The notes under the pieces are model-generated. The model was not told the origin of the DNA, did no database searches, and worked only from the letters and a program-made list of their open reading frames with translations. The position numbers and the translations under genes are program-made. From Bacteroidaceae bacterium (GTDB lineage: Bacteria > Bacteroidota > Bacteroidia > Bacteroidales > Bacteroidaceae), in contig JAFXDG010000076.1 in assembly GCA_017521285.1 (NCBI GenBank), positions 1 to 35,226 on the forward strand: a DNA stretch of 35,226 nucleotides, written 5' to 3'. Below, piece by piece: positions 10,149-27,517 of this stretch (positions are counted from its first letter, which is position 1; every line of letters begins with the position of its first letter).

Positions 10149-10156
10149 CAAAAGTA
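10149..10156 (-). promoter_or_regulatory. -7 box of the GH77-pullulanase-susB-susA operon
   Basis: The minus strand reads TACTTTTG from 10156 down to 10149, fitting TAnnTTTG. The first base is 61.5 bp from the centre of the operator at 10210-10225. No TTTG lies at a 20-nt gap; the nearest is at a 23-nt gap (plus-strand CAAA at 10180-10183). The ATG at 10093 follows a leader of about 50 nt. Confidence 0.6.
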
Positions 10157-10209
10157 CGACAAAAATACAACCGTTTTGGCAAAGAATTGCATTTTAATCT
10201 GTTAAATAG

Positions 10210-10225
10210 TTGCAAACGTTTGCAA
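10210..10225. promoter_or_regulatory. LacI-type operator upstream of the GH77 operon
   Basis: TTGCAAACGTTTGCAA is a perfect 16-bp palindrome with the central CG typical of LacI/CcpA-family sites. It lies between the divergent GH77 operon and the porin gene. Its core is identical to that of the operator beside the LacI gene (18411-18428). Confidence 0.8.
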
Positions 10226-10341
10226 TTTTGCAATTTGAATTTTCCAAAAAAGCCAGTCGCAAAAAAGAAAAAGCAAGTCGCATTTTTATTCCCTACACCA
10301 ATAAAAAATGTAATATGCGCGCGTAAACCGACTTTTTTCCC

Positions 10342-10349
10342 TAAATTTG
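10342..10349 (+). promoter_or_regulatory. Possible -7 box of the porin gene
   Basis: TAAATTTG matches TAnnTTTG but ends only 8 nt before the ATG at 10358, which would give a nearly leaderless transcript. No clear -33 box is present. It may be a chance match. Confidence 0.3.
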
Positions 10350-10357
10350 CAGCCGAT

Positions 10358-12775
10358 ATGAAGCGAATTGTATTTTTATTGACCCTGATGATAGCGGCTA
10401 CGACGGCCGTATGGAGCCAACAACGGCTCCCCAACAGAAGTACCAATGCCATGGGCATTGGCGATGACCTGGGAACCAACATGACCGACGAAGACCGTAG
10501 CCGTGCCCAAGAGGGTGGCGAGGGCGGAACGGATGTGGTGAACGTGCCCGTTGATGTGAACCAATGGACTCTCTCGTCCCGGTTTGGCGATGTCAGACCT
10601 GTACAGGTAGATACTTTGTGGGAATATTATCAGAATGTTCACTTGACCGAGGGGCTGCGTGGGGAATATAACCATATCGGAAACTTCGGTTCCCCCCGCT
10701 TGTCGCGCATCTTTTTTGACCGTGAGGATAGAACGCAACGCTTCTTTACCGATGTCTATGGGCAATTCTATCTGAAACCCGACCAATTCCGCTTTACCGA
10801 TACCAAGTCGCCATACACCAACCTGACTTATCATAGCGCGGGCGACAAACTGACGGGTGATGACCATTTTAAAGCTTACTTTGCTGTGAATGCCAACAAA
10901 CGTTTTGGTTTTGGATTTTTAGCGGATTACCTCTACGGACGCGGACAATACAATAGCCAATCGACCGCCTATTTCAATGGAAGTCTCTATGCCTACTATA
11001 GGGGTGAACGCTATCAGGCCTATTTCCTTGGCAGCCGCTATCACATGAAACAAGCAGAGAATGGAGGTATCACCGACGACCGATACATTACCGATCCGTT
11101 GGAAATGGCCGAGGGAGAGCGTACCTACGACCCCGAAAACATTCCTACGCGTATGGAGAGGAGTTGGAACCGCAACGAAAACTGGAACTTCTTTCTGACC
11201 CACCGTTACAGCATCGGATTCTATCGCGATGCTGATGAGGATGTGGCTGTTGGGGATACAACCCTGACGGAACCATTGCTCCCTCAGGCCAGACCGGCTG
11301 AGACCATCATAGAAACACCCGCTCCGCAACCTGTGGCCACTGGGGATGATTCTATCGCTGTTGCACCCAAACTGTTGGCTCCGTTTGTGGCTGATTCTAC
11401 TATTGCCGCCTCTGTTCCGCAAGGTGTGACTGCGGCCGATTCGGTCGCCGTATCTCTTCCGCAGACGATGGCTGTGGCCGACTCGGCTATCGCTGTACCT
11501 TTGGCTGCAGCGCCGGGAAGTGTTGCCGTTGCTCCTCAAAAGGAGATGAAAACTGAAGTCAAGAATGATGGCGATGGAGAGACTGTTTTTGTTCCCGTCA
11601 CCAGTTTCATTCACACGGCTGAAGTAAGCACCAACGAACACAGTTTTATTGCCTATCAGGAGCCGGATGACTATTATCTGCACGATTATATGCCTTACGA
11701 TTCGATTGATAAGACGACCTACCTGTCGGTGAAGAACACATTGGCTGTAGCCACCTTGGAAGGATTCAGCAAGTGGGCACAGGCGGGACTGACTGCCTTT
11801 GTCACTCATGAATACCGTCGCTTCAATCTGCCAGACACTTTGATAGGCACTATGCGTGAGTTCCGCCACCAATATACCGAGAACTCCGTAAGTGTGGGCG
11901 GACGCCTGCAACGTACACAGGGACGGACTTTGCACTACGATGTAACGGGCGAAACGGTCATTGCTGGTGATGACCTCGGACAATTCAGTCTTGAAGGGCG
12001 TGGCGATTTGAACTTCCGTCTCTTCAAAGATACAGTTCGTTTGGACGTACATGCCTTCATGAAGAATCTCCGTCCGGCTTTCTATTTCCGACATTATCAT
12101 TCGCATCACTACTGGTGGGACAATGACGATTTGGACAAAGTCTTCCGCACGCGCATCGAGGGCGGACTTACCATCGACAAAACCCGAACCCGCTTACGTG
12201 CCGGTGTGGAGAATATCAAGAACTATACTTATTTGGCCAACGCCAGCCAGCCATTGACCAACAATCAGGGTGAGACGATGGGGTTTGCCAATGCTGTCAA
12301 TGTGGCACAGTGTAGTGATAACATACAGGTGTTCACTGCCCGCCTGACGCAGGATTTCAAGTTGGGCATTTTCCACTTGGACAACGAGGTGACCTATCAG
12401 AAATCAAGCGACAATACTGTGCTGCCTCTTCCTGAATTGTCACTCTACCACAACTTTTATCTTCAGTTCAAGTTGGCCAAGGTGTTGAGTATGCAACTGG
12501 GAGCCGATGTCAGATTCTTCAGCAAATATGCCGCTCCTGATTATGCTCCTGCTTTGGGACAGTTTGTCCAGCAGAATCAGGCCGACAAAGTTGAAATCGG
12601 AGGGTATCCTTTTGTGAACGTTTATCTGAATGCCCACTTGAAGCGAACGCGCTTCTACGTGATGATGTATCATGTCAATCAGGGTATGGGTGACTCCAAC
12701 TATTTCTTGGCACCGCACTATCCCATCAATCCGCGAACCTTCCAGTTCGGTCTTTCGTGGAACTTCTATGATTGA
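10358..12775 (+). CDS. Putative porin (Porin_10-like outer-membrane beta-barrel)
   Basis: This 805-aa protein belongs to the large Bacteroidetes 'putative porin' family, whose substrate is unknown. The signal peptide is MKRIVFLLTLMIAATTAVWS, then QQRLPNRST. The body is rich in alternating aromatic strands (for example FFTDVYGQFYLKPDQFRFTD) and ends in a C-terminal strand, FQFGLSWNFYD. A low-complexity stretch at about 293-410, rich in Ala, Val, Pro and Ser with ADS(V/A/T)xA motifs, interrupts the barrel sequence and probably forms a long loop. I chose the ATG at 10358 because the in-frame extension back to 10187 is lysine- and phenylalanine-rich, crosses the operator and precedes the signal peptide. 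It is the first of four co-directional genes (gap 55 nt to the next). Confidence 0.8.
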   Translation: MKRIVFLLTLMIAATTAVWSQQRLPNRSTNAMGIGDDLGTNMTDEDRSRAQEGGEGGTDVVNVPVDVNQWTLSSRFGDVRPVQVDTLWEYYQNVHLTEGLRGEYNHIGNFGSPRLSRIFFDREDRTQRFFTDVYGQFYLKPDQFRFTDTKSPYTNLTYHSAGDKLTGDDHFKAYFAVNANKRFGFGFLADYLYGRGQYNSQSTAYFNGSLYAYYRGERYQAYFLGSRYHMKQAENGGITDDRYITDPLEMAEGERTYDPENIPTRMERSWNRNENWNFFLTHRYSIGFYRDADEDVAVGDTTLTEPLLPQARPAETIIETPAPQPVATGDDSIAVAPKLLAPFVADSTIAASVPQGVTAADSVAVSLPQTMAVADSAIAVPLAAAPGSVAVAPQKEMKTEVKNDGDGETVFVPVTSFIHTAEVSTNEHSFIAYQEPDDYYLHDYMPYDSIDKTTYLSVKNTLAVATLEGFSKWAQAGLTAFVTHEYRRFNLPDTLIGTMREFRHQYTENSVSVGGRLQRTQGRTLHYDVTGETVIAGDDLGQFSLEGRGDLNFRLFKDTVRLDVHAFMKNLRPAFYFRHYHSHHYWWDNDDLDKVFRTRIEGGLTIDKTRTRLRAGVENIKNYTYLANASQPLTNNQGETMGFANAVNVAQCSDNIQVFTARLTQDFKLGIFHLDNEVTYQKSSDNTVLPLPELSLYHNFYLQFKLAKVLSMQLGADVRFFSKYAAPDYAPALGQFVQQNQADKVEIGGYPFVNVYLNAHLKRTRFYVMMYHVNQGMGDSNYFLAPHYPINPRTFQFGLSWNFYD

Positions 12776-12830
12776 TGCCCTAATAGCTTTCGGGAAGAAC
12801 GTTTTACCTATTTATATATTATAATAAGGA

Positions 12831-13622
12831 ATGACAAGCATGGATAGACGTTACTTGAAATATCTCGTTATCGGTCTTATCATCGCCATTGTTTCGGCTT
12901 TGATGCTTCCCCAGAAAGAAGAGGAGAGGGGAGTAGGACGTGACTATGATGCTATCAGCGAGGAGGGCATACTGAGAGTTACTATGTCCTATGCGGCCAA
13001 CTCATATCATGTGGGTGATGACGGTGAGCCGGATGGATACCATTATCGTCTGGTCAGAGATTTCGCCGAAGAGCATGGTCTGCGGTTGGAGGTTATTCCC
13101 GAAATGGATGTAGCCAAGCAAGAGGCCATGCTGGCCGAAGGACGTTGCGACCTGATTGCTGACGGACACCTGCTGACCGAAGAGTATGACACCATTCACT
13201 TGCAATATACACGTCCCGTGAGGGTCGATCGCCTGTTGTTGGTGCAGCGGAAGGCTGGGGTGGACAGCCTGTGCACTCATCTGCGGAGTCAGATAGAATT
13301 GGCCGGACAGACGGTATGCATTCCCGAAAATTCTCCATTCAAACAGCGAATCAGGCACATCATGGAGGAAATAGGCGACAGCATCTACGTGGACGAAATC
13401 CCTCGCTACGGGCAAGAGCAATTGATGGCAATGGTTGCTCACGGCGACATCTGCTATGCCATCTGTGAAAAGGAGGTGGTAAACACCCACATCAGCCGTT
13501 TCCCTCAATTGGATGTCAGTTTGCCCGTCGGGTTTAACCAATTCTACTCGTGGGCGGTTGGAAGACACGCACCCGCCCTGCTCGACAGCATCAACCTTTG
13601 GCTCAGTCTAAAGCATGAATAA
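12831..13622 (+). CDS. Membrane-anchored solute-binding-protein-3-like protein
   Basis: This 263-aa protein has a single N-terminal membrane segment or uncleaved signal (residues about 11-26, VIGLIIAIVSALML). The rest resembles family 3 extracellular solute-binding domains, as found in amino-acid-binding proteins and in the N-terminal half of the lytic transglycosylase MltF. The visible pattern is GILRVTMSYAANSY, then DLIADGHLLTEEY, then QTVCIPENSPF and GDICYAICEKEVVN. No transglycosylase domain or transporter genes follow. In this family a small ligand is held between two lobes; the ligand here is unknown. It lies between the porin and the oxidoreductase, so a role tied to the envelope is inferred from position only. 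The alternative start at 12840 (MDRR) is also possible. Confidence 0.65.
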   Translation: MTSMDRRYLKYLVIGLIIAIVSALMLPQKEEERGVGRDYDAISEEGILRVTMSYAANSYHVGDDGEPDGYHYRLVRDFAEEHGLRLEVIPEMDVAKQEAMLAEGRCDLIADGHLLTEEYDTIHLQYTRPVRVDRLLLVQRKAGVDSLCTHLRSQIELAGQTVCIPENSPFKQRIRHIMEEIGDSIYVDEIPRYGQEQLMAMVAHGDICYAICEKEVVNTHISRFPQLDVSLPVGFNQFYSWAVGRHAPALLDSINLWLSLKHE

Positions 13623-13670
13623 ATTCCTGTCCGTTATTTATAATTCATAAATCAAAACCAAAGTTATTCA

Positions 13671-14651
13671 ATGAACACCGTACAATGGGGCTTTATCGGC
13701 TGCGGCGAAGCCACGGAAAAGAAGAGTGGACCGGCTTTCAGCCAAGTGGAAGGGTCGAGTGTCGTGGCTGTGATGAGCCGGAATGCCGAGAAGGCCAAGT
13801 CGTACGCTCAGCGACATGGTATCGGGAAGTGGTACACCGACGCTCAAGAGCTGGTGGATGACCCACAAGTGAACGCTGTCTATATTGCCACTCCGCCGTC
13901 GTCTCACGCCACTTTCGCAATTATGGCTATGCGGGCGGGAAAGCCGGCTTATATCGAAAAACCTATGGCTGCCAGTTACGAAGACTGTGCCCGCATTAAC
14001 CGCATCAGCGAGCAGACGGGGGTTCCCTGTTTTGTGGCCTATTATCGTCGTTATCTTCCTTATTTTCAAAAGGTGAAAGATCTTATCCGTGACGGAGCAG
14101 TGGGAAATGTTATCAATGTACAGATACACTTTGCCCAGCCTCCGCGCGATTTGGACTATAACAGCCGTAACCTTCCTTGGCGTGTATTGCCTGTCATCTC
14201 GGGCGGCGGATATTTTTACGACCTTGCACCTCACCAACTTGACCTTTTGCAAGATATGTTTGGTGTCATTCTTCGTGCTCAGGGCTATACCAGCAACCGG
14301 GGTGGTCTCTATGAGGCTGAAGACACTCTGAGCGCCAGTTTCCAGTTCGATAGTGGACTGCCAGGTTCGGGCTCGTGGTGCTTTGTTGCCCATGAATCGG
14401 CCAAGGAAGACTGCATTGAAGTCATTGGTGACCGTGGAATGCTAAGTTTCTCCGTATTTACTTTTGAACCTATCGTGTTGCATAATGAACAGGGGGTACA
14501 ACGCTTCGACATACCCAATCCCAAATATGTGCAGCAACCGTTGATCCAACGTGTGGTGGACCACTTGCTGAAGCGGGGCGTGTGCACTTGTGACAACATC
14601 AGTGCTACGCCGACGAATTGGGTGATGGACAAAATTCTGGGAAAACTATGA
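13671..14651 (+). CDS. Gfo/Idh/MocA-family NAD(P)-dependent oxidoreductase
   Basis: This 326-aa cytoplasmic enzyme has the Rossmann start QWGFIGCGEATEKKSGPAF. The family's EKP motif lies at about 97-99 in KPAYIEKPMAASYEDC, and the substrate-side motif SGGGYFYDLAPHQLDLL lies near 180-195, where the conserved histidine/aspartate pair supports catalysis in relatives. Such enzymes oxidise or reduce sugars, inositols and related polyols with NAD(P). The substrate cannot be told from sequence. Its TGA stop overlaps the ATG of the next gene by 4 bp (ATGA), so the two are translationally coupled. Confidence 0.85.
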   Translation: MNTVQWGFIGCGEATEKKSGPAFSQVEGSSVVAVMSRNAEKAKSYAQRHGIGKWYTDAQELVDDPQVNAVYIATPPSSHATFAIMAMRAGKPAYIEKPMAASYEDCARINRISEQTGVPCFVAYYRRYLPYFQKVKDLIRDGAVGNVINVQIHFAQPPRDLDYNSRNLPWRVLPVISGGGYFYDLAPHQLDLLQDMFGVILRAQGYTSNRGGLYEAEDTLSASFQFDSGLPGSGSWCFVAHESAKEDCIEVIGDRGMLSFSVFTFEPIVLHNEQGVQRFDIPNPKYVQQPLIQRVVDHLLKRGVCTCDNISATPTNWVMDKILGKL

Positions 14652-15763
14652 GACGTTGGATGTTCCTCATGTTGTTCTTGCCTTTCGGCCTAAAGGCCCA
14701 AACGGTTTTACCTGTTTCCGAATCTGGTGGGGCTGTCACCGTTAAGACAGATTCTGTGGCTACAGTGAAGCAGAAAAGGAACATCCTGACCAAGGTACGT
14801 GATGCTATTGTGTGGTATCTCGACTACTACGACTATGACACGGCTTACATCAGCCCACCAAAGTTCTATTATACGCTGATGGTGCAACAGAGTGCAAGTT
14901 TTGAACAATACACTATCCGTACCACGGGCGAACGGTCTCAGATGTTACGCTTTGCTCCCGATCATAGCTACAAATTGGGGGCATATTTCGGATGGCATGG
15001 ATTTTTTCTCGGTGCATCAGTCAATGCGGATGAACTTTTTTCCAAACGAAACGGAACGAACAAGAAGACGGAGTATTTCGTCAATCTCTATGGAGCCAAG
15101 GTTGGCGCCGATTTCTTCTATCGTCGGACGGGGAATGATTTTAAGATTCGTCGCGCTGACGGATTTGGACCAAATGGGACGGATCTTCCCGAACTCGGCG
15201 GTATGGACTTCAATGGTCTGAAGGTGCGTGCTATGGGGTTTAATGTATATTACGTCTTCAACAACAAACACTTTTCGTATCCCGCTGCCTATGCACAAAC
15301 GACCGTACAGAAAATCAGCAGAGGTACATTGGTCGCCGGATTCTCGTGGTCTCGTCATCATTTGGATTTCAATCATCACCTGTTGCCCGACCCTATCTGC
15401 GAAACCCTAAGCGATGACCTGAAGTTCAAGCAGGTGAAATATGTGGACTTCAATATCAATTTCGGATATGCCTTCAATTGGGAGTTTGTCGATAACTGTT
15501 TGTTGGCCGTAGCACTAACTCCTGCTGTTGCCTACAAGTCGTCGCGCATCACGACGGAGAATTCAATACACAACCAGCGACACCATAATCTCAACCTTGA
15601 CTTCATAACCCGGACTGGTTTGGTGTATAACAACAACCGCTTTTTCGCCGGAGTCTCGGCGGTGGCTCACGTTTATCAGTACTATCAGCGGAATTTTGCT
15701 TTGACGGACAATTTCGGCATCGTAAATCTTTATGCCGGATTCAATTTCGGACGCAGGAAATAA
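14648..15763 (+). CDS. DUF4421-family outer-membrane-like protein
   Basis: A 371-aa exported protein with signal peptide MRRWMFLMLFLPFGLKAQ. The body has alternating aromatic strands and the segment RNGTNKKTEYFVNLYGAKVG followed by FFYRRTGNDFKI, which I recognise as typical of DUF4421 proteins of Bacteroidales. It ends with a beta-signal-like strand NLYAGFNFGRRK, suggesting an outer-membrane barrel. The function of the family is not known. I chose the ATG at 14648 rather than the upstream in-frame ATG at 14618 because the signal peptide begins there and the start overlaps the previous stop. It is the last gene of the porin block. Confidence 0.75.
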   Translation: MRRWMFLMLFLPFGLKAQTVLPVSESGGAVTVKTDSVATVKQKRNILTKVRDAIVWYLDYYDYDTAYISPPKFYYTLMVQQSASFEQYTIRTTGERSQMLRFAPDHSYKLGAYFGWHGFFLGASVNADELFSKRNGTNKKTEYFVNLYGAKVGADFFYRRTGNDFKIRRADGFGPNGTDLPELGGMDFNGLKVRAMGFNVYYVFNNKHFSYPAAYAQTTVQKISRGTLVAGFSWSRHHLDFNHHLLPDPICETLSDDLKFKQVKYVDFNINFGYAFNWEFVDNCLLAVALTPAVAYKSSRITTENSIHNQRHHNLNLDFITRTGLVYNNNRFFAGVSAVAHVYQYYQRNFALTDNFGIVNLYAGFNFGRRK

Positions 15764-15873: not shown

Positions 15874-17229
15874 TTACTGTTCTTTTTCCTTGATGACAAA
15901 CACACAAGCGGCTCCAGCAAACAATAATAGACCCGCCAGTGCGAGCATGTAAGCCTCGGGGGCTGCTTCACCGACAGCGGTAGGGAAGAGGCTCAGTATG
16001 AGTCCGCCCAAAGCAGCGGCAATAATTTGCGGCAGACAGATGGTGCCGTTGAACAGTCCGAGGTAAGTGCCCATGTGTCCACCTGTCAGAGCGTTGGTCA
16101 GGATGGTGAAAGGCAATGCTAACATGGCGGCCCAAGCGCATCCAATAAGCAGGAAAGAAACAAAGATGAGGTAAGGGTCGTGGATGAAATTTGTGCTGAT
16201 GAATCCAACACCGCCGAGTACGAGGCTGAGGGCATAGATGGCCTTCAGGTTCTTGAAGCGGGGGATGATTATGGCCCACAGGACAGATCCGATAGCTTGG
16301 ACTGCAAAGAGTACGCCCACCCAGTTTCCTGCCTCCTGATATTGGGTAGAGGTGGTGTCGAGCAACCATTTACCAGTACGCTCCACCACAGGAGCATCGA
16401 AAACGTTGGCGGCTACGGTGCCGTTCGTATAAGTCCACATGAACATAAAGGCGGCCCAGCAGAAGAACTGTACGAGTCCTACTGTCCAGAAAGCTTTTGG
16501 GGCCTTTACTAACAATTTTAGCATGTTTGTTTTTTCATTTTTCTCTTCCTCAGGATTGATGCCGTGGTATTCGGCATATTCTTTCGGAGGCATCTCCTTC
16601 ACTTTTATGGTGGTGTAGATGACACAGAGGATGAGGATTGCTGCTCCGATGTAGAACGAAAAGATAACCGAATCGGGGATGACTCCCTCGGGGGCAACAT
16701 TACTGATGCCGATGAGGGCAAAAATGAAAGGGAAAAGATAACCGGCCAGCGAGCCTGCATTGCATAAGAAACTTTGGATGGAATAGGCGAGTCCTTTCTG
16801 TTTCTCGTTCACCATGTCGCCTACTAACATTTTGAAAGGTTGCATGGCCATGTTAATGCTGGTGTCGAGGAACATCAGGGCTATGAGGCCGAAGATCATG
16901 GCGGTGCTAATCGTCATACCAAAACTTCCAGCATTGGGCAGCAGGCACATAACCAGTACGGACATGGCGGCTCCTGCGAACAAATAAGGTATGCGACGGC
17001 CGAAGCGGCACCACGTCTTGTCGCTGGCTGCACCGATAATGGGTTGCACGATGATTCCCATCAATGGGGGCAGAATCCAAAAGTAGCTCAGACTGTGTGG
17101 ATCAGCACCGAGAGTGGCAAAGATGCGGCTGATGTTGGCACTTTGCAGGGCGTAAGCAATCTGTACGCCAAAGAACCCGAAACTCAGGTTCCACAATTTC
17201 CAAAAACTAAGATCAGGCTTTGTTTTCAT
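15874..17229 (-). CDS. MFS sugar transporter (maltose/maltooligosaccharide-type, SLC45/GPH-like)
   Basis: A 451-aa inner-membrane protein with about 12 hydrophobic segments. The start MKTKPDLSFWKLWNLSFGFF and the loop motif GAASDKTWCRFGRRIPYLFAG (with its conserved SDK...GRRxP pattern) are typical of bacterial disaccharide-proton symporters related to Caulobacter MalA and the eukaryotic SLC45 carriers. A charged cytoplasmic loop (KVKEMPPKEYAEYHGINPEE) lies between the two halves. It is co-transcribed with the LacI gene (42-nt gap), and its position in a starch locus makes maltose or short dextrins the likely cargo. That would feed the cytoplasmic GH77. The substrate is inferred. Confidence 0.85.
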   Translation of the reverse strand: MKTKPDLSFWKLWNLSFGFFGVQIAYALQSANISRIFATLGADPHSLSYFWILPPLMGIIVQPIIGAASDKTWCRFGRRIPYLFAGAAMSVLVMCLLPNAGSFGMTISTAMIFGLIALMFLDTSINMAMQPFKMLVGDMVNEKQKGLAYSIQSFLCNAGSLAGYLFPFIFALIGISNVAPEGVIPDSVIFSFYIGAAILILCVIYTTIKVKEMPPKEYAEYHGINPEEEKNEKTNMLKLLVKAPKAFWTVGLVQFFCWAAFMFMWTYTNGTVAANVFDAPVVERTGKWLLDTTSTQYQEAGNWVGVLFAVQAIGSVLWAIIIPRFKNLKAIYALSLVLGGVGFISTNFIHDPYLIFVSFLLIGCAWAAMLALPFTILTNALTGGHMGTYLGLFNGTICLPQIIAAALGGLILSLFPTAVGEAAPEAYMLALAGLLLFAGAACVFVIKEKEQ

Positions 17230-18349: not shown

Positions 18350-18357
18350 CAAAGTTA
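18350..18357 (-). promoter_or_regulatory. -7 box of the lacI-MFS unit
   Basis: The minus strand reads TAACTTTG (TAnnTTTG). Its first base, 18357, is 62.5 bp from the centre of the operator at 18411-18428. No TTTG stands at the -33 spacing. The leader to the ATG is about 30-35 nt. Confidence 0.6.
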
Positions 18358-18410: not shown

Positions 18411-18428
18411 AGTGCAAACGTTTGCACT
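18411..18428. promoter_or_regulatory. LacI operator shared by lacI and GH53
   Basis: AGTGCAAACGTTTGCACT is a perfect 18-bp palindrome, the best site in the window. It lies between the divergent lacI and GH53 genes, 62.5 bp from the lacI -7 box and 64.5 bp from the GH53 -7 box, so one site can serve both. Confidence 0.85.
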
Positions 18429-18483: not shown

Positions 18484-18491
18484 TACTTTTG
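18484..18491 (+). promoter_or_regulatory. -7 box of the GH53 gene
   Basis: TACTTTTG matches TAnnTTTG; the ATG at 18522 follows after 30 nt. There is no recognisable TTTG about 20 nt upstream, as at the other operator-linked promoters. Confidence 0.6.
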
Positions 18492-18521: not shown

Positions 18522-19682
18522 ATGAAAAATCCGAATTTTTTGGCCATTTTTGTTGTGGCCGTTTTTGCTCTTTGCTCCTGTAACAGTTGCAGTAAGAGCG
18601 ACGAACCAGTAAACAAACCGGAGAATGAAAATCCCGTTGACTCCGTTCCTTCACAGGTTCCAGTGGACAGTGTGCCCTCGCAAGAACCTGTTGTGACAAC
18701 TGCTTTTGTGAAAGGTGCTGACTTGGGGTGGGTGACTGAGATGGAGGCCGATGGTGTGACGTTCTATGATGCCGACGGAAAGGCCACCGAATGTTTTGCG
18801 CTGATGAAGCAGTTGGGAATGAACGCTGTCCGTCTGCGTGTGTGGGTGAATCCCGAAAAAGAGTATTGTAATTACTGTAACCTACCCGATGTGTTGGTAA
18901 AGGCCCGTCGTGCCAAAACATTGGGGATGGATGTAATGATAGACTTCCACTACAGCGACTGGTTTGCCGACCCAAGCCGCCAGTTGATCCCTTCGGCATG
19001 GGAGGGGAAGACATTGGCCGGCGTGAAGGAGGCAATGGTGGCACATACCAAAGAGGTGTTGGAGGCCTTGAAGTCCGAGGGTATCATCCCACGATGGGTA
19101 CAAGTGGGAAATGAAACCCGTAACGGTATGTTGCACCCTCACGGACAATTGTGGGACAACAATGGTAATATAGAGAACGGATGGCAGAACTATGTGGCCT
19201 TGAGCAATGCCAGTTACGATGCCGTGAAGGAAGTGGCTCCCGAAACTCAGGTCATCGTTCATATAGATAATGCATGGGACAATAATGAATGGTGGTTCAA
19301 TCAGTTTAAGGCGCTTGGTGGTAAGATGGACATTATTGGTCTTTCACATTATCCGCAGACAACTTCAAAGACGTGGCAGGAGATGAATAACTTGGCATTG
19401 AATCACATCAACAAATGGGCGAAAGCATACGGCAAGCCGGTGATGGTGTGCGAGGTTGGTGTGAAGTCTGAAGCCGACGAAGCGCTGGCGGCTACCGTGC
19501 TCACCGATTTTTTGACTCGGGCAAAGAAACTGGAACATTGTTTGGGTGTGTTCTATTGGGAACCTCAGGAGTACGGATGGTGGAAACCTGCCATATATGA
19601 AAAACTGGGATGGGATGCCTACAACATGGGTGCTTTCACCATGGAGGGACGCCCCGCTGCTGCTATGAAAGCCTTTGAGTAA
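18522..19682 (+). CDS. GH53 endo-beta-1,4-galactanase lipoprotein
   Basis: A 386-aa enzyme of the arabinogalactan endo-beta-1,4-galactanase family, which cuts beta-1,4-galactan side chains of pectin. The signal MKNPNFLAIFVVAVFALCSC has a lipobox-like end (Cys18 or Cys20), so it should be a lipoprotein. A linker follows with PVDSVPSQ written twice. The catalytic domain starts at FVKGADLGWVTEME and carries GMNAVRLRVWVNP, MIDFHYSDWFADP, the acid/base in WVQVGNETRNGM and the nucleophile in VMVCEVGVKS. All key residues are present. I chose ATG 18522 because the longer frame from 18429 crosses the promoter and overlaps the operator region. Its control by the starch-type operator, without any other galactan gene in view, is odd. 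Confidence 0.88.
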   Translation: MKNPNFLAIFVVAVFALCSCNSCSKSDEPVNKPENENPVDSVPSQVPVDSVPSQEPVVTTAFVKGADLGWVTEMEADGVTFYDADGKATECFALMKQLGMNAVRLRVWVNPEKEYCNYCNLPDVLVKARRAKTLGMDVMIDFHYSDWFADPSRQLIPSAWEGKTLAGVKEAMVAHTKEVLEALKSEGIIPRWVQVGNETRNGMLHPHGQLWDNNGNIENGWQNYVALSNASYDAVKEVAPETQVIVHIDNAWDNNEWWFNQFKALGGKMDIIGLSHYPQTTSKTWQEMNNLALNHINKWAKAYGKPVMVCEVGVKSEADEALAATVLTDFLTRAKKLEHCLGVFYWEPQEYGWWKPAIYEKLGWDAYNMGAFTMEGRPAAAMKAFE

Positions 19683-19812: not shown

Positions 19813-19824
19813 GCAATCGTTTGC
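19813..19824. promoter_or_regulatory. LacI-type operator upstream of susC
   Basis: GCAATCGTTTGC differs from the perfect GCAAACGTTTGC core at one position. Its centre is 62.5 bp upstream of the susC -7 box, the same distance as at the lacI and amylase promoters. Confidence 0.7.
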
Positions 19825-19880: not shown

Positions 19881-19888
19881 TACTTTTG
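19881..19888 (+). promoter_or_regulatory. -7 box of the susCDEF operon
   Basis: TACTTTTG matches TAnnTTTG and is identical to the GH53 and GH77 boxes. The region at the -33 spacing reads GTTT, a poor match. The expected start of transcription is near 19893-19895, leaving a leader of about 106 nt to the susC ATG. Confidence 0.65.
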
Positions 19889-19894
19889 CTTCGC

Positions 19895-20000: not shown

Positions 20001-23000
20001 ATGAAGCAAGTTGATTCAAGAATCTTTCGTTTGATTCTTACCCTATTGTTTGGGGTATTCTTGTCAGTGGGCGCTTATGCACAGAGCATTAATGTGAAAG
20101 GACACGTTAAAGATGCTATGGGTGAGGTCATAGGTGCCAATGTAGTTGAGAAAAGTAATCCGGGTAACGGTACTATTACCGATGTCAACGGAAACTTCTC
20201 TCTTAAGGTAAAACAAGGTGCAACGCTCGTTGTATCTTTTGTCGGCTATATCACTCAGGAAGTGAAGGCTGCTCCCAATGTTACAATTACGTTGGAAGAC
20301 GATTCAGAACTTTTGGAAGAAGCCGTAGTAATCGGTTACGGTGTGGCCAAGAAGAGTGATTTGACAGGTTCTGTTATCGCAATGAAACCCGACTTGAAGA
20401 ATAAGGGTGTGGTAATCAATCCGCAGGATATGATGGTGGGTAAGATTGCCGGTGTGAACGTGACCAGCAGTGACGGTACTCCGGGTGGCGGTAATCAAAT
20501 CCGTATTCGTGGCGGTTCTTCACTGAACGCCAGCAATGACCCCCTTATCGTTATTGACGGTGTGGCTATGGACAACAATGGTATCAAGGGTGTGGCCAAT
20601 CCTCTTTCTCTGATTAATCCGCAGGATATTGAGAGTTTCAACGTGTTGAAGGATGCCTCTTCAACAGCTATCTATGGTTCTCGTGGTTCTAATGGTGTTA
20701 TCATCATTACCACCAAGAAGGGAAGCAAGGGACAGAAACCTCAAGTATCATACGCAGGAAGCTTGACTGTCAGCACCAAGAAAAACTCCATCGATGTTAT
20801 GGATGCCAATGAGTACCGTGCCTTTATTAAGGATATCTGGGGTGAGGAAAGTGATGCTTATCGCGCATTGGGTACCGCCAATACAGATTGGCAGGACGAA
20901 ATCATGCGTACAGCTATCAGTCACGACCATAATGTAACATTGTCCGGTTCTTTCAAAAACTTGCCTTATCGTGCATCTGTCGGTTATACAGACCAGCAGG
21001 GTATTATCAAGACTTCTGAGTTCCAACGTGTGACAGCTTCGTTGAATCTTAATCCGACATTCTTCGATGAGCATTTGACCATGAACTTGAATGCAAAGGG
21101 AATGTATTCAAGAAGCCAATATGCTGATGGTGAAGCTATCAGCGACGCTATCGTGTTTGACCCTACACAGGATCCTTACGATTATACTTCTGATTTCCAC
21201 AATGCCATGTTCAACAAGTATGATGAGGAGCATGGTTACCCCATGGGAACCACTATGGCTGCCACTTGGGAGAATATGGGACACTATTTCGAGTGGCCTA
21301 TGGCTGGTGCATACAACGATAATACTTGGCCTTATACCTATAATAACTTGGCTCAGAAGAATCCGTTGGCTATCCTCAATGAGAAACATAATGTCGCTCA
21401 TAGCCGCGCTTTCATCGGTAGTGCTGATGTTGATTACAAAGTACATGGTTTTGAAGACTTGCGTCTGCACATGACTTTGGGTGCTGATATTTCTAAGGGT
21501 CGTCAGCAGACAAACACGACTCCGGCTTCTCCGCAAGCTATTTATTACGGAAGCTATGGTGCCGATGAAATCTTGAAGCGCAATCTTTCGTTGAATGCTT
21601 ATGCACAGTATTATAAGGATTTCAACAAGAATCACCATTTCGACATTATGGGTGGTTACGAATGGCAACACTTCTGGCGTAGTCAGAACAATGATTATGT
21701 AGGTTACTATCCTACTACCAATAATGATGCATCGTTGGCTGGTACAGAGCGTCCGCACACTCCTTATAAGTTTAAGACCGAGAACTATCTGGTTTCTTTC
21801 TTCGGACGTGCCAATTACATTTTGAACAATCGCTACTACTTGACTGGAACTATTCGTTACGATGGTTCTTCACGCTTCTCTGATCACTGGTCGTTCTTCC
21901 CCTCTGCTGCTTTTGCATGGAAGGTGAAGGAAGAAGCTTTCTTGAAGGATGCTGAATGGTTGTCAGACTTGAAACTCCGTCTCGGTTATGGTCAGACTGG
22001 TCAGCAGGATGTGAACAATGATTATGCATGGGTTCCGACCTATTCAATGTCAACCGGAACAAACGGTTTCTATCCGCTGTTGGGTAATGGTGAACTTTAT
22101 CGTCCTGACAACTATACTCCCGACCTTAAGTGGGAAACAACTACTACTTACAACGTCGGCCTTGACTTCGGGTTCCTCAACCAACGACTCACTGGTAGTG
22201 TGGACGTTTATTACCGTGAGACAACAGATTTGTTGAACTATGCTCCTACTGTTTCAATGTCTGCTTTCCGTAATCAGGCTTGGCAGAATATTGGTTCGTT
22301 GGAAAACAAGGGTGTTGAATTGACATTGGATTGGAAGGCCATCCAGACAAAAGATTGGTTCTGGACATTGAGTTACAACGTGACTTACAATCAGAACGAA
22401 ATTACTGACCTTAGTGGTGTTTCTACTGATGGTGAGCCTGTTGCCAATACGGGTATTACCATTGGTACCGACAAGTACTTGCAGTACAATCAGGTGGGTC
22501 AGCCTATCAATTCGTTCTACGTGTACCAGCAGGTTTACGACCAGAACGGCAAGGCCATTGAAAACTGCGTGGTTGACCGCAACGGTGACGGACAGATTAC
22601 TGAAGGAGACCGCTATTTCTATAAAAGCCCGGCTGCTCCTGTCACCATGGGCTTGACCTCACGTTTGGAGTACAAGAATTGGGACTTCGGTTTCTCGCTC
22701 CGTGCAAGTTTCGATAACTATGTGTTTAACAACATTGAATCAGGTTATGCTAACTTGAACAAGAATGAGATTTGGGCTTCTACCCAGTTCCTCACTAATC
22801 GTCCGACATGGACTGTAGCCGACAATTGGCAGACTTATTCTCCCACAGCTTTGCTTTCTGACCGTTATGTTCACAACGCCTCATTCTTGAAGTGCGACAA
22901 CATCACGTTGGGTTACAGCTTCCAGAATCTTTTCAAGGCTGGTTCATATAAGGGACTTGCCGGTCGTGTTTATGCTACGGCTTCTAACGTATTTACTATT

Positions 23001-23102
23001 ACCAATTACGACGGTCTCGACCCCGAAATTTCTAATGGTTACGACAACGAACTCTATCCGCGTCCGTTCTCATTCATTGTGGGTCTGAACTTGAATCTTT
23101 AA
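20001..23102 (+). CDS. susC: SusC-type TonB-dependent outer-membrane transporter
   Basis: A 1033-aa outer-membrane importer that works with SusD and the TonB system to take up starch oligosaccharides. The signal peptide ends at AYAQ (about residue 28). Residues about 31-105 form the carboxypeptidase-regulatory-like domain (NVKGHVKDAMGEVIGANVVE). Next comes the EEAVVIGYG segment and the plug (about 115-235; GVNVTSSDGTPGGGNQIRIR, PLIVIDGVAMD, ASSTAIYGSRGSNGVIIITT). The remainder is the 22-strand barrel, ending RPFSFIVGLNLNL. The size is typical for SusC. SusD follows 21 nt later. The signal-peptide region is preceded by a structured leader and an operator-linked promoter. Substrate assignment rests on the linked SusEF and amylase genes. 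Confidence 0.95.
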   Translation: MKQVDSRIFRLILTLLFGVFLSVGAYAQSINVKGHVKDAMGEVIGANVVEKSNPGNGTITDVNGNFSLKVKQGATLVVSFVGYITQEVKAAPNVTITLEDDSELLEEAVVIGYGVAKKSDLTGSVIAMKPDLKNKGVVINPQDMMVGKIAGVNVTSSDGTPGGGNQIRIRGGSSLNASNDPLIVIDGVAMDNNGIKGVANPLSLINPQDIESFNVLKDASSTAIYGSRGSNGVIIITTKKGSKGQKPQVSYAGSLTVSTKKNSIDVMDANEYRAFIKDIWGEESDAYRALGTANTDWQDEIMRTAISHDHNVTLSGSFKNLPYRASVGYTDQQGIIKTSEFQRVTASLNLNPTFFDEHLTMNLNAKGMYSRSQYADGEAISDAIVFDPTQDPYDYTSDFHNAMFNKYDEEHGYPMGTTMAATWENMGHYFEWPMAGAYNDNTWPYTYNNLAQKNPLAILNEKHNVAHSRAFIGSADVDYKVHGFEDLRLHMTLGADISKGRQQTNTTPASPQAIYYGSYGADEILKRNLSLNAYAQYYKDFNKNHHFDIMGGYEWQHFWRSQNNDYVGYYPTTNNDASLAGTERPHTPYKFKTENYLVSFFGRANYILNNRYYLTGTIRYDGSSRFSDHWSFFPSAAFAWKVKEEAFLKDAEWLSDLKLRLGYGQTGQQDVNNDYAWVPTYSMSTGTNGFYPLLGNGELYRPDNYTPDLKWETTTTYNVGLDFGFLNQRLTGSVDVYYRETTDLLNYAPTVSMSAFRNQAWQNIGSLENKGVELTLDWKAIQTKDWFWTLSYNVTYNQNEITDLSGVSTDGEPVANTGITIGTDKYLQYNQVGQPINSFYVYQQVYDQNGKAIENCVVDRNGDGQITEGDRYFYKSPAAPVTMGLTSRLEYKNWDFGFSLRASFDNYVFNNIESGYANLNKNEIWASTQFLTNRPTWTVADNWQTYSPTALLSDRYVHNASFLKCDNITLGYSFQNLFKAGSYKGLAGRVYATASNVFTITNYDGLDPEISNGYDNELYPRPFSFIVGLNLNL

Positions 23103-23123
23103 TCCTAATAAAAGAAAATAGTC

Positions 23124-24731
23124 ATGAAAAAATATATAAAGAATATTCTTCCTATGGCGGCCATGGCCTTGTCATTAGGTGTGGCATCTTGTACTGGGGA
23201 CTTGGACGTTGAGCCTATCAACCCCAACTTGTCGCTTGATTACGATGTCAATGGATTGTTCAACAAGTGCTACGCAAACATTGCTCTTGCTGGCAACGGC
23301 GGAGCCAATGGCGACTGCGATATTGATGGTCTCGATGGCGGAACAACAGGTTTTGTTCGTCAGATGTGGAACTCCAATGAGTTGACTACCGATGAAGCTC
23401 TCTGTCATTGGGGTGATGATGGTATCCAAAGTTTTTGTTACAATACCTATGATGCTTCACATCCGATGCTTAATGGTTACTATGCTCGTCTGACGACCGG
23501 TATTTCATACTGTAACCAGTATCTGAATGTCGCTTCAGGTCACGATGCAACGATGACGGCAGAAATTCGTTTTATCCGTGCCCTCCATTATTATATGTTG
23601 ATGGATGCTTATGGTAACATTCCTTTTGCAACTTCGTTGACACAGCCTTCACGCATGACTCGTGCCGAGGCTTATGCTTGGTTGGAGGCTGAATTGCTCG
23701 ACTTGGAAGCTGGTTTGTCTGAAGCTAAAGCAAAGAAGTCAACCGATGCGAACTATGGCCGTGTGGACAAGGCTGCTTGTTGGATGTTGCTTTCACGTCT
23801 TTATCTGAATGCAGAAGTTTATACTGGTACAGCTCAGTGGGGCAAGGCTGCTGAGTATGCACAGAAGGTGATGAATTCTTCTTATAAACTCCACACTGCG
23901 GGAAAGAATGGATGGAGCGCCTATCAAATGCTCTTCATGGGTGACAATGGTGAGTCTGATGCTGCTTACGAGTGTGTATTCCCTATTTTGCAGGATGGCT
24001 TGACTACTACCAGCTGGGGTACTTCACTTTTCTTGATGGCTTCAACGTATGATGCTGATATGCATTCAAATCCTAACGATGCCGTTGCAACCAACGGAAC
24101 CGATCAGAACTGGGGTGGAAACAAGGCTCGTCCTGACCTTATCAAGAAATTCTTCCCGAATGGTAATGCTCCTCAAGTGAATGCCTACAACATGGCAGAA
24201 GCTGCAGGTGATGACCGTGCTCTCTTTGATGGTGTTGGTCGTGAGAGCATCGAGAATTCCAAAGGCTATTTGGGTGACTTCAAAGATGGTTATGCAGTTG
24301 CTAAGTTTGTTAACTTCAAGAGCGACGGTAGCGCCGGACACGATGCTACTTTCCCTGACATGGATTTCTTCTTCTTCCGCGTGGCTGAGGCTTACCTGAC
24401 ATACGCTGAGGCTACTGCACGTGCTAATGGCGGAACGATGACTCCCGAAGGTGTTCAGGCTATCAACGATTTGCGTACTCGTGCCAATGCTGCAACCAAG
24501 GCTGGTTATTCTATGAATGACATCTTGGACGAGTGGAGCCGCGAGTTCTATTTTGAAGGCCGTCGTCGTGTGGACCTTATTCGTCATGGTAAGTTCGGTG
24601 GCAACAACGACTACAATTGGCAATGGAAAGGTGGCGTGAAGGAAGGTCGTAATATCGATGCTACTAAGAATATTTTTGCCATCCCTGCCGCTCAGGTGAA
24701 GGGTGCCATCATTCAAAATCCTGGTTATTAA
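23124..24731 (+). CDS. susD: SusD-family starch-binding surface lipoprotein
   Basis: A 535-aa lipoprotein that caps SusC and binds glucan. The signal MKKYIKNILPMAAMALSLGVASC has its lipid-bearing Cys at 23, followed by TGDLDVEP, whose acidic residues fit a Bacteroidetes surface-export signal. TPR-like helices frame the fold (SYCNQYLNVA, IRFIRALHYYMLMDAYGNIP). The C-terminal motif REFYFEGRRRVDLIRHGKF is diagnostic for the SusD family. Its length is close to B. thetaiotaomicron SusD (551 aa). It is the second gene of the operon, with a 7-nt or 19-nt gap to susE depending on the start chosen. Confidence 0.95.
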   Translation: MKKYIKNILPMAAMALSLGVASCTGDLDVEPINPNLSLDYDVNGLFNKCYANIALAGNGGANGDCDIDGLDGGTTGFVRQMWNSNELTTDEALCHWGDDGIQSFCYNTYDASHPMLNGYYARLTTGISYCNQYLNVASGHDATMTAEIRFIRALHYYMLMDAYGNIPFATSLTQPSRMTRAEAYAWLEAELLDLEAGLSEAKAKKSTDANYGRVDKAACWMLLSRLYLNAEVYTGTAQWGKAAEYAQKVMNSSYKLHTAGKNGWSAYQMLFMGDNGESDAAYECVFPILQDGLTTTSWGTSLFLMASTYDADMHSNPNDAVATNGTDQNWGGNKARPDLIKKFFPNGNAPQVNAYNMAEAAGDDRALFDGVGRESIENSKGYLGDFKDGYAVAKFVNFKSDGSAGHDATFPDMDFFFFRVAEAYLTYAEATARANGGTMTPEGVQAINDLRTRANAATKAGYSMNDILDEWSREFYFEGRRRVDLIRHGKFGGNNDYNWQWKGGVKEGRNIDATKNIFAIPAAQVKGAIIQNPGY

Positions 24732-24750
24732 ATTCTAAATGACAATGATT

Positions 24751-25956
24751 ATGAAAAATATATTTAAATCATCATTGCTGTTGCTGTGCGGTGTGTGCTT
24801 GTTCACTGCCTGTGAAGACGATAACGATTCGAATCCTACGTTGCAACAGCCTACCACCTTTGTGTTGAATACTCCCGCGTATGCAGCATCTGCCATTGAT
24901 TTGGCTACCTCTACAGAGATTCCGTTCACTTGGTCACAGCCTGATTACGGTTTCCCCGTTGCTGCACAATATCAGTTGCAAGTGTCATTGAATGATTCAT
25001 GGACAGTTTCTACTGATCAGGCCGCTGCTGATGAAAGTGGTGCAACTGTGGCCGACTATGCTATGATTGAAGATGTCTTCTCTCAAGCAAAAGGTTCACT
25101 TAATGCTGCCAAGTTGGCAAAAGCTTTGCAGCAGATTGCTCTTTGGCCTGTAGAAGCTGTTCCTGCTACCCAGTTGGTGAAAGTGCGTGCCTTGTCAGTC
25201 CTCAATGCTGACACTATCTACTCTAACACCGTGGATGTGAATGTAGTTCCTTTCTACGTAGAGTTGAAGGATGCTGCGCCCGTATTGTGGTATCTGGTTG
25301 GTAGTTGTATCGGTGATGGTTCATGGGGCAATAGTGCCGATGGTATTGGCAAAGGATTGATTCCTTTGATGACAATTGCTGGTGAAGAGTACGATAAAGC
25401 TACTGGTACAGGTAAGATTTCTTATACAGGATTCTTCCCCGCAGGCGGTCAGTTCAAGCTTGTTCAGATTCCGGGTAATTGGGACATCCAGAAGAACTTC
25501 GATTCATTCGCAGGTATTGATGCAACGTTGTTTGAAGGAAATTCTGATGGTAATGTAGTTGTTAAGGACGGTTGTCAGGGCTACTATACAGTTACTCTCG
25601 ATACCAAATCAGGTGACATCGCCATTGAACCTTACACTGCTTCAACTCCGCGTGTATTCTCTTCTATTGCAATGCCTGGTGGTCACAATGAATGGAATGC
25701 AGCAGGTGATCCTATGACTGCCACATTCACTTACGATGGTGCCGAGAACCACATGTGGACAACTACATTGACTTTGGGTGCTGATGCAGAATTGAAGTTT
25801 GCTGCCGATGGTGCTTGGGATTTCAATTGGGGTGCTGTAGAGTTTCCCTATGGAGCAGGTACACAGAATGGTGCCAATATTCCTGCTAAGGCTGGTGTCT
25901 ATACCGTATTCTTGAATGACATCACCGGTCAGTACATGTTTATTGCTAACGAATAA
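24751..25956 (+). CDS. susE: SusE-type starch-binding lipoprotein
   Basis: An outer-membrane lipoprotein of 401 aa. The signal MKNIFKSSLLLLCGVCLFTAC gives lipid-Cys 21, followed by the acidic stretch EDDNDSN typical of surface export. Residues about 30-180 form the SusE N-terminal fold (TTFVLNTPAYAASAIDLAT, then FTWSQPDYGFPVAAQYQLQV). Two starch-binding modules follow, one from LWYLVGSCIGDGSWGN and one from FSSIAMPGGHNEWNAAGDPM. Aromatic residues within them (for example in FAADGAWDFNWGAVEFPYG) are likely glucan contacts. In-frame ATGs at 24739 and 24745 would only add MTMI or MI; I chose 24751 because the signal peptide then starts MKN. No Shine-Dalgarno distinguishes them. Third gene of the operon. 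Confidence 0.9.
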   Translation: MKNIFKSSLLLLCGVCLFTACEDDNDSNPTLQQPTTFVLNTPAYAASAIDLATSTEIPFTWSQPDYGFPVAAQYQLQVSLNDSWTVSTDQAAADESGATVADYAMIEDVFSQAKGSLNAAKLAKALQQIALWPVEAVPATQLVKVRALSVLNADTIYSNTVDVNVVPFYVELKDAAPVLWYLVGSCIGDGSWGNSADGIGKGLIPLMTIAGEEYDKATGTGKISYTGFFPAGGQFKLVQIPGNWDIQKNFDSFAGIDATLFEGNSDGNVVVKDGCQGYYTVTLDTKSGDIAIEPYTASTPRVFSSIAMPGGHNEWNAAGDPMTATFTYDGAENHMWTTTLTLGADAELKFAADGAWDFNWGAVEFPYGAGTQNGANIPAKAGVYTVFLNDITGQYMFIANE

Positions 25957-25971
25957 ATCAGTTAAGAAGAT

Positions 25972-27363
25972 ATGAAAAAAATAGTTTATACACTGGGCCT
26001 TGCTTTGCTGGCTGCAAGCTGCTCGGAAGATTATAAGGATTGGTCTGTTTCTCAGGCCAATCCACAAGAAGATGCCAAGAGCGTATCTTTGGAAACTGCC
26101 ACTGCTGCTGATGTGGATTATGCTGCATTGGACAGTTCTTTGGTACAGATTTTCAAGCCTACCATTACGGCTGTAGATGAATGTACAACCACTTATCAGG
26201 TGACTCTTTGGAATGAAAGTAAGAGTGCTAATGGTACTTTGGCTGCTAATGACAGCGGTTATGTCGCTGCCGACGAACTGAAGACGGTGATAGAAACCAT
26301 CTATGGCAAACGTCCTGTGGCACGCAAGTTGTATCTCGACATTGCAGGATACACCGTCATCAACGGACAGAGCATCAAAAATACAGCTGAGGATTCGGTG
26401 AATGTGACTCTCAAAGCTCCCTATATTTCCAATGCCTATTATTTAATCGGTGATATGTTGGCTTGGAGTAAAGAAGGAGCAAAAGCCTTTACTCAGAAGG
26501 GGACGGGAGATGTATATGATAATCCTGAATTTGAGGTAGTATTTACAGTTACTGCTACAGAGGAGAAGACCAATGATTGGTATTGGAAAATTGTTCCTGA
26601 TACTAACTATGATGGAGAAAATTTCTGGTACGAGGGTGAAGATGGTATTGTAGGTGTTGCTGTGGATGGTGATGATAGCTTTGAGGGAGAGTTGGTGACA
26701 ACAAAGCCTCAAGCGGGTAAGGTAGTGAATCCTGGTATTTATAAGATGACTATCAACATGATGCAATATACTTATAAAATTGAAGAACTGAACTTCAATG
26801 AGTACATCTATGAAATCGGAGGATTGGATTGGAGTTCTTCTCGTCCTCTTTACGGTCAAAATTTTGACGGCAAGTATCAGGGTTATTATTGGATAAATAG
26901 TGAATTCAAGTTCAAACCCAATGCAGACAATTGGGAAGGTGATTGGGAAGATGCAGGAAATGGTACTATGACAACAGAGGGTGGACCGAATATGAGTGTT
27001 CCTGCTGCCGGTTTCTACCAGATTGACGTTAATCTGGCAGACATGACCTATGCTGCAACATTGGTTGAGAGCATCAGTATCATCGGAACAGTAAACGGAA
27101 ATTGGGATACTGATACTGACCTGACATACAACAAAGAAACTGGTGCATGGGAAGTGACAGCTACATTGAGTGCTGGCGAGATGAAGTTCCGCATGAACCA
27201 CGACTGGGCTATCAGTTGGGGTGGCGCTAACGGCGATGGAACCAACTTTGATGATTTGACACAGAATGGTGGTGCCAACTTGCAAGTGGCTGCAGGAACA
27301 TATCTTATCCAACTTTATATCCAGTATGAAGGTGCAAACAAAGTGGTACTTACAGCACAGTAA
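25972..27363 (+). CDS. susF: SusF-type starch-binding lipoprotein
   Basis: A 463-aa outer-membrane lipoprotein with signal MKKIVYTLGLALLAASC (lipid-Cys 17), then SEDYKDW. After an N-terminal region (about 20-145), three repeated glucan-binding modules can be seen, starting at AYYLIGDMLAWSKEG, YIYEIGGLDWSSSRPLYGQN and ISIIGTVNGNWDTDTDLTYN. Each has a conserved tryptophan-rich core (for example MKFRMNHDWAISWGGANGDG). SusF of B. thetaiotaomicron also has three modules, which supports the SusF rather than SusE call. It follows susE by 15 nt and is the last gene before the terminator. The middle module is the most divergent. Confidence 0.88.
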   Translation: MKKIVYTLGLALLAASCSEDYKDWSVSQANPQEDAKSVSLETATAADVDYAALDSSLVQIFKPTITAVDECTTTYQVTLWNESKSANGTLAANDSGYVAADELKTVIETIYGKRPVARKLYLDIAGYTVINGQSIKNTAEDSVNVTLKAPYISNAYYLIGDMLAWSKEGAKAFTQKGTGDVYDNPEFEVVFTVTATEEKTNDWYWKIVPDTNYDGENFWYEGEDGIVGVAVDGDDSFEGELVTTKPQAGKVVNPGIYKMTINMMQYTYKIEELNFNEYIYEIGGLDWSSSRPLYGQNFDGKYQGYYWINSEFKFKPNADNWEGDWEDAGNGTMTTEGGPNMSVPAAGFYQIDVNLADMTYAATLVESISIIGTVNGNWDTDTDLTYNKETGAWEVTATLSAGEMKFRMNHDWAISWGGANGDGTNFDDLTQNGGANLQVAAGTYLIQLYIQYEGANKVVLTAQ

Positions 27364-27386
27364 TTTACCATTTTGTCAATAGATTC

Positions 27387-27428
27387 AAGCACGCCTCGGA
27401 GCCGTAAGTTCCGTAGGCGTGCTTTTTT
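27387..27428 (+). terminator. Terminator after susF
   Basis: AAGCACGCCT (27387-27396) pairs with AGGCGTGCTT (27415-27424), with an inner CGGA/TCCG stem, followed by a T-run. It separates susCDEF from the amylase gene, which therefore needs its own promoter. Confidence 0.85.
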
Positions 27429-27439
27429 GTTTGGCAGAT

Positions 27440-27455
27440 TTGCAATCGTTTGCAA
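27440..27455. promoter_or_regulatory. LacI-type operator upstream of the amylase gene
   Basis: TTGCAATCGTTTGCAA is palindromic except for one central pair, and its core is the same variant as at the susC site. The centre is 62.5 bp upstream of TAAATTCG at 27510. Confidence 0.75.
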
Positions 27456-27509
27456 AGGAAATAGGCGATAGTAATCTGTTCGTTGGTCGTGTGATAGGGG
27501 ATAAAAAGG

Positions 27510-27517
27510 TAAATTCG
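27510..27517 (+). promoter_or_regulatory. Probable -7 box of the amylase gene
   Basis: TAAATTCG is one mismatch from TAnnTTTG and lies exactly where the operator spacing at the other promoters predicts it. The ATG at 27546 follows after 28 nt. Confidence 0.5.

Follow-up and report, generated by a model that had tools for sequence, protein, structure and literature searches.

Among the gut Bacteroidota, the use of starch serves as a model trait, with SusR, whose control is positive, as the textbook regulator. In the SusR-dependent sus locus of Bacteroides, the regulator is a 531-amino-acid SusR-like DUF6377 protein, and the sites predicted for it are, according to PMC3878776, direct repeats 67/77 bp apart. 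Here, we report on the starch locus of a 35,226-nucleotide stretch of DNA from a Bacteroidaceae bacterium (contig C101, GenBank JAFXDG010000076.1, of a 3.38-Mb genome that is 86% complete; hereafter the window), which harbors an enzyme and transporter set of the same kind as the Bacteroides locus but differs from it in carrying a soluble LacI-type regulator and single palindromes as regulatory sites. Comparison of its promoters with those of related loci leads us to consider it likely that the LacI-type protein is a local class-I-type activator of the starch genes standing in for SusR, and supports the activator reading that an initial annotation had given to the operator geometry. A set of Prevotella-like and other Bacteroidaceae lineages appears to run the same kind of starch genes with a LacI-type activator.

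LacI-type proteins of bacteria usually repress their targets. Members of the family with an activating role from upstream sites are known in Escherichia coli, where GalR/GalS (GalR at gal P2) and Cra provide examples. The system proposed here resembles theirs but differs in that no second looping site would be needed at the single-operator promoters, and in that the spacing is kept across many genera. CcpA of Bacillus is a dual regulator of the same family, whose cre sites, according to PMC3463425, activate when located upstream of the -35 element and repress when overlapping it, in a helix-face-dependent manner; the same account presents a global regulator that works with HPr-Ser-P and mostly represses, whereas the window LacI would control a local regulon with one fixed spacing at nearly every target. 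The LacI-family regulators KdgR, UxaR, UxmR and UxuR of B. thetaiotaomicron, which belong to the same phylum, are predicted for uronates and none for starch in the excerpts of PMC3878776, where, unlike for the starch LacI, no positional logic is given. B. fragilis and B. uniformis have sus loci (LacI, MFS and GH65) that, as in the window, contain a predicted LacI regulator and no SusR (PMC11633381); the passage concerned gives neither sites nor mechanism, and orthology to the window LacI is not implied. Titles and abstract openings of the surveyed literature yielded neither a LacI-type activator of starch genes nor the spacing described below. The window protein itself scored above cut-off for PF00356 and PF13377, as expected of a LacI/GalR regulator. 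Its AlphaFold model (pLDDT 88.7) matched CcpA, PurR and LacI, with CcpA (best), RbsR and PurR as the nearest folds, and its score for the CcpA equivalog (NCBIfam ccpA) was below the cut-off (150.5 vs 442.35 bits).

Throughout, the spacing is the distance from the operator centre to the first base of the -7 box, the latter being a match to the consensus TAnnTTTG and taken as a putative promoter. The initial annotation had claimed GCAAWCGWTTGC-like palindromes at four sites of the window, at all of which exact 12-bp cores were located, and the distances it had given for the five promoters served by them proved correct to the base (Table 1). A box with at most one mismatch was found at 61.5-64.5 bp in 5/5 promoters; the best of 5000 dinucleotide shuffles reached 4/5, and did so once. 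GCAAWCGWTTGC has four copies in the whole genome, all of them within the window locus, vs one for a reversed-pattern control. As also claimed, neither TTTG nor TTG stands at -33 in any of the five promoters (0/5), and the operator-free promoters of the HU and DUF4468 genes carry TTG and TTTG there, respectively. One caveat concerns GH77, whose promoter contains another exact box, located 11 bp upstream of the first and 50.5 bp from the operator. No box with at most one mismatch was present in the 180 bp upstream of susA, GH97 (susB) and the MFS gene, and pullulanase showed a single one-mismatch candidate over the same distance; these four genes are therefore probably carried on the GH77 and lacI transcripts.

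A porin-like gene at 10358, divergent from the GH77 operon, has its own TAAATTTG at 10341-10348, 124.5 bp from the GH77 operator and with no -33 element.

The question of whether this spacing is conserved in relatives was addressed with 47 loci in addition to the window, 29 of which were fetched from genomes of the family (three being paralogs) and 18 from named contigs. LacI orthologs, defined by an E value below 1e-100, were found in 27 of the 151 family genomes sampled, and paralogs alone in three further genomes (3e-64 to 1e-70). The sample included eight other genomes of the genus to which the window belongs, none with a LacI match at 1e-60, and the distribution of the ortholog is thus patchy. 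Twenty-four orthologs aligned at 52-88% identity. The commonest gene order was an MFS-lacI pair divergent from susC. A palindrome with a central CG, as is typical of LacI/GalR operators, and with at most one mismatch to GCAAWCGWTTGC, preceded lacI at a distance of at most 420 bp in 44/45 ortholog loci; the remaining locus, L048, begins at a contig edge. The 124 operator hits located upstream of typed genes had an exact TAnnTTTG most often at 61.5 bp (37 hits) and 62.5 bp (44 hits), with no other single offset exceeding seven; among 123 operator-directions, five offsets held 94 exact boxes and the remaining 153 offsets 37. Allowing one mismatch, a box at 60.5-65.5 bp was present in 104/113 operator-bearing promoters of the 47 loci and window, or 103 distinct promoters once a duplicate row (susC of L040) was dropped, so that the conservation called for by the initial annotation held. 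Broken down by gene, the box stood at 61.5-63.5 bp in 40/40 distinct susC promoters, at 60.5-63.5 bp in 39/44 ortholog lacI promoters, at 60.5-65.5 bp in those of susG (9/9), GH77 (8/8) and GH97 (2/2), and at 61.5-65.5 bp in 5/6 GH53 promoters. The nine rows missing a box at this distance were lacI in L035, L039, L041, L043 and L075, GH53 in L064, the paralog lacI genes of L076 and L077, and the porin-like gene of the window. Twenty-seven homologs at 35-42% identity from other families of the phylum included none with a 62-bp pair, only exact boxes having been sought, such that degenerate ones could escape; so far as sampled, the rule is seen only in the closer clade.

The promoters so positioned are poor in -33 elements. 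TTG at -33 (sought at -24..-21) was found in 8/103 operator promoters vs 31/85 controls, the latter being the other promoters of the same loci (p 1.4e-6), and was depleted too, though less strongly, in a smaller promoter set with less strict controls (8/79 vs 33/101; p 3e-4). TTTG alone (gap 19-21) was not significantly depleted in that smaller set (4/79 vs 14/101; p 0.08). A site located upstream of the promoter elements in fixed helical phase, here dominated by 61.5/62.5 bp, and target promoters without a good -35/-33 element are what is expected of class I activation. A/T tracts, considered as a signature of the alpha C-terminal domain of RNA polymerase, were only weakly enriched over controls, both at -38 (65/103 vs 39/85; p 0.019) and at -48 (66/103 vs 39/85; p 0.018), and were not used as proof.

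An operator overlapping the promoter or start, the hallmark of a classical repressor, was found at none of the 104 promoters with a box at 60.5-65.5 bp. It was found for lacI in L035, L041 and L043, where the box of lacI is 25.5 bp from the operator and the TTTG of the operator forms the -33 box at a 20-nt gap. The susC gene on the opposite side keeps its 62.5-bp spacing in all three loci, and the sign of autoregulation has apparently changed at the lacI promoter alone. Both arrangements are displayed by a paralogous LacI branch (L146-L172, 27 loci), which shares 33-36% identity with the window LacI and is encoded divergently from a gene judged by eye to be aldo/keto-reductase-like. The operator of this branch is ACG[CT]AA..TT[AG]CGT-like, with related palindromes such as ACGTAAACGTTTGCGC. 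The box of the target gene stood at 51.5/52.5 bp in 21 of the 23 loci with a palindrome, TTG being present in 4/21 and T occupying positions -40..-36 in 17-21 of 21 target promoters; the box of the regulator's own gene stood at 23.5-25.5 bp in 15 loci, with a -33 TTG in 14 of them. Spacings of 51.5/52.5 and 61.5/62.5 bp are one helical turn apart, and shifts by one turn are what class I activators would be expected to show. Activation is thus the preferred reading because the -33 TTG is missing, because the repressor geometry looks different, and because the paralog targets lie one turn closer. Other LacI proteins from eight genomes gave 33 matches, of which 30 loci were subjected to a crude palindrome scan (three matches without a locus were left unread); usable palindrome-box pairs came mainly from the starch and paralog branches, and many of the 30 loci gave none.

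A third LacI branch is represented by a single case, L230 (G646:C1:3368597), in which a divergent TATATTTG lies 51.5 bp from the palindrome CGGGAACGTTACCG.

With the -7 box centred at -7, the operator would lie at about -72 from the transcription start. A repressor might also act from such a distance, with LacI either holding polymerase in an unproductive state, in the manner of GalR at gal P1, or blocking an activator bound in the spacer, and sugar bringing derepression. We regard this as unlikely, yet as the most serious of the alternatives. In its favor, an upstream-bound CcpA is described as preventing productive contact of the activator LevR at lev, and exact Crp/Fnr-like TTGAN6TCAA dyads precede the -7 box by 26.5 bp in five lacI promoters and by 36.5 bp in four susC promoters (L037, L038, L040, L042, L046, L057, L062, L066, L068), the two positions being 10 bp apart and in phase. 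A second regulator may accordingly be at work at some promoters. Dyads with at most one mismatch are nonetheless confined to a minority (16/103 promoters vs 4.1 expected), contact repression would be expected on strong polymerase-binding promoters rather than on promoters lacking a -33 element, and the geometry associated with repression in this family is a different one (23.5-25.5 bp, with the -33 box inside the operator).

Since the loci had been found via the LacI protein, the operator set described so far was conditioned on LacI; two genome scans were not. The first used a composite pattern (operator, 54-57 N, TANNTTTG), which yielded 73 matches in 28/151 genomes vs 0/151 for the reversed pattern, and was present in 25/27 LacI-positive vs 3/124 LacI-negative genomes (Fisher p 5e-23). 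The second showed the bare operator to be present in 94/151 genomes. The three genomes with a composite match and no LacI (G018, G065 and G083) are 81, 81 and 84% complete; the two with LacI and no match are G023 and G049, and L070 and L071 have one-mismatch operators. It is on these grounds very improbable that a regulator other than this LacI binds the sites. LacI paralogs do recognize related palindromes, and the binding of LacI is itself a prediction; nevertheless, the operator accompanies lacI in nearly every ortholog locus, the composite pattern follows the presence of lacI in the 151 genomes, and it is absent from 12/12 genomes with a close SusR relative.

Seven other genomes contained ten further exact operators outside of the promoter set, the nearest lying 6 kb from lacI on its own contig and others elsewhere in the genome. 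A box at 61.5/62.5 bp accompanied each of the six intergenic operators (two of the boxes with one mismatch) and none of the four intragenic ones, among which L127 and L128 represent one site in two related genomes. The genes targeted from these further sites include a SusG with CBM58 (L129), a GH13 amylase with CBM26 (L132) and a 922-amino-acid GH13 protein (L135).

Two of these further sites are worth recording separately. L126:3062 (G150:C1:2653061) combines an operator with an exact box at 61.5 bp and has no clear downstream gene; its product may be a small RNA or a short peptide. At L133:3394, an operator with a box at 62.5 bp is followed 369 bp downstream by a GH28 (pectin-type) gene, an odd member for a starch regulon.

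The spacer between operator and box varies little in length and greatly in sequence. The standard deviation of the spacing was 0.4-0.9 bp vs 10-34 bp for the distance from box to start codon, the former being computed over promoters preselected as having a box 59-66 bp away. Median spacer identity was 0.31-0.33 vs 0.28-0.30 for shuffled spacers. The loci are partly close kin (e.g. L060/L061, L066/L068 and L070/L071; L147/L148 and L150/L151/L154 have nearly the same promoter), and the counts are not all independent; in a reduced set of 65 from which spacers at least 50% alike had been removed, which addresses kinship for the starch branch, 58/65 were still at 61.5/62.5 bp. The tight spacing, together with the near-shuffled identity, thus suggests that the length of the spacer is under constraint and its sequence hardly so. 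That the spacing is a functionless relic of one operator-promoter cassette copied to several genes, as a single regulon with many promoters in homologous intergenic regions might suggest, is already disfavored to the point of being barely conceivable, given that spacer sequences have diverged to near the shuffled level at lengths constant to within one or two bases, and that the distances from box to start differ by tens of bp.

In the activation mechanism that we favor, a LacI dimer would bind at GCAAWCGWTTGC, the centre of which lies 61.5-62.5 bp before the TAnnTTTG box, and aid RNA polymerase at promoters devoid of a -33 element, most likely through contact with the alpha C-terminal domain. 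GH77, susC and susG would be activated in this manner, as would, from the same site facing the other way, lacI itself and the MFS transporter gene. The signal would be starch products entering the cytoplasm through that transporter, and LacI would take the place that SusR has, as an activator, in the equivalent locus of Bacteroides. We infer from sequence that this protein binds the sites, that it activates rather than represses, how it contacts the polymerase and what its ligand is. Several points weigh against this mechanism. Of the five GH53 promoters that have a box, four show a spacing of 64.5-65.5 bp, which is slightly off the helical phase. A/T-rich stretches at -38 are common in control promoters too (0.85 vs 0.97 per base). 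L103, a distant LacI-SusC pair (35% identity) from another family of the class, has its susC box 25.5 bp from GCAAACGTTTGC, a repressor geometry. Finally, classical LacI-type proteins leave DNA upon binding inducer, and induction by activation therefore needs reverse allostery or a different ligand.

The fixed spacing provides a sequence rule with which to find the regulon in unseen genomes, suggests how activators substitute for the -33 element in a phylum whose promoter logic is poorly known, and implies that automatic "LacI repressor" labels may carry the wrong sign. A broader proposal, which we advance tentatively and would not yet bet on, is that LacI-family proteins of the Bacteroidaceae are commonly position-coded activators. 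A dimer bound 51.5 or 62 bp before the box would take over the role of the -33 element and activate; placed at 24-25 bp, the same operator would itself serve as the -33 box and mediate repression. Were this true, the sign of regulation would be readable from sequence, the repressor label given by default would be mistaken for a large part of the family, and three branches would already show it, namely the starch branch (62), the aldo/keto-reductase-like paralog branch (51.5) and the single L230 (51.5).

The initial annotation had further held that the control logic differs from that of SusR, a view supported by Bacteroides-like genomes (genus g13), where a close relative of the MFS transporter was found in 40/60 genomes and ten of these loci were read. 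MFS and GH77 occurred together in 10/10, and susA-type, GH97 and SusC genes in 6-7 of the 10 stretches; LacI and the exact operator were each found in 0/10, and two loci had a distant one-mismatch site unaccompanied by a box. Where open reading frames were read (L193, L194 and L199), a gene of 531-534 amino acids stands in LacI's stead, the L193 copy having a DUF6377 domain; from position and size, we take this gene to be SusR. Close SusR-like relatives (at least 52% identity, E below 1e-160) were present in 12/151 genomes, none of which was among the 27 with a LacI ortholog. Such mutual exclusion is in line with replacement and weak when taken alone (overlap 0 vs 2.1 expected by chance; p 0.085). 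One SusR genome, G008, belongs to the window's own genus, and weaker SusR-like matches (28-47% identity) do occur in LacI genomes, e.g. G055 and G003. The window genome, at its 86% completeness, had no SusR match at E 1e-40, its starch locus holding LacI.

Table 1 Operators, putative -7 boxes and genes of the starch locus in the window
Feature	Position	Strand	Remarks
Operator GCAAACGTTTGC, GH77 operon	10212..10223		Exact palindrome
Operator AGTGCAAACGTTTGCACT, lacI and GH53	18411..18428		Serves both genes divergently; exact GCAAACGTTTGC at 18414-18425 inside
Operator GCAATCGTTTGC, susC	19813..19824		
Operator GCAATCGTTTGC, susG	27442..27453		
-7 box TACTTTTG, GH77 operon	10149..10156	-	61.5 bp from operator centre
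-7 box TAACTTTG, lacI-MFS	18350..18357	-	62.5 bp from operator centre
-7 box TACTTTTG, GH53	18484..18491	+	64.5 bp from operator centre, 2 bp off the common spacing
-7 box TACTTTTG, susCDEF	19881..19888	+	62.5 bp from operator centre
-7 box TAAATTCG, susG	27510..27517	+	62.5 bp from operator centre; one mismatch
LacI/GalR-family regulator, 346 amino acids	17272..18312	-	Pfam LacI helix-turn-helix 52.1 bits, Peripla_BP_3 98.5 bits
MFS sugar transporter	15874..17229	-	Behind lacI; domain search
GH77 4-alpha-glucanotransferase with CBM20	7412..10093	-	Heads presumed operon GH77-pullulanase-GH97-GH13
Pullulanase	5309-7294	-	Domain search and type I pullulanase model
GH97, susB-like	3155-5281	-	Domain search
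GH13 cyclomaltodextrinase-type, susA-like	1239-3140	-	Domain search
GH53 (endo-galactanase family) protein	18522..19682	+	Family from domain search
susC, susD, susE, susF	20001..27363	+	SusC/RagA model; SusE and SusF domains; susD by position after susC alone
susG-like GH13 alpha-amylase with CBM26	27546..29555	+	Domain search

The starch locus is laid out with GH53, susCDEF and the susG-like amylase on the plus strand and with GH77-pullulanase-GH97-GH13 and lacI-MFS on the minus strand (Table 1). The start of GH53 was reassigned, from reading of the sequence, to the ATG at 18522, downstream of its -7 box. A gene of the galactanase family is found between lacI and susC, under a starch operator.

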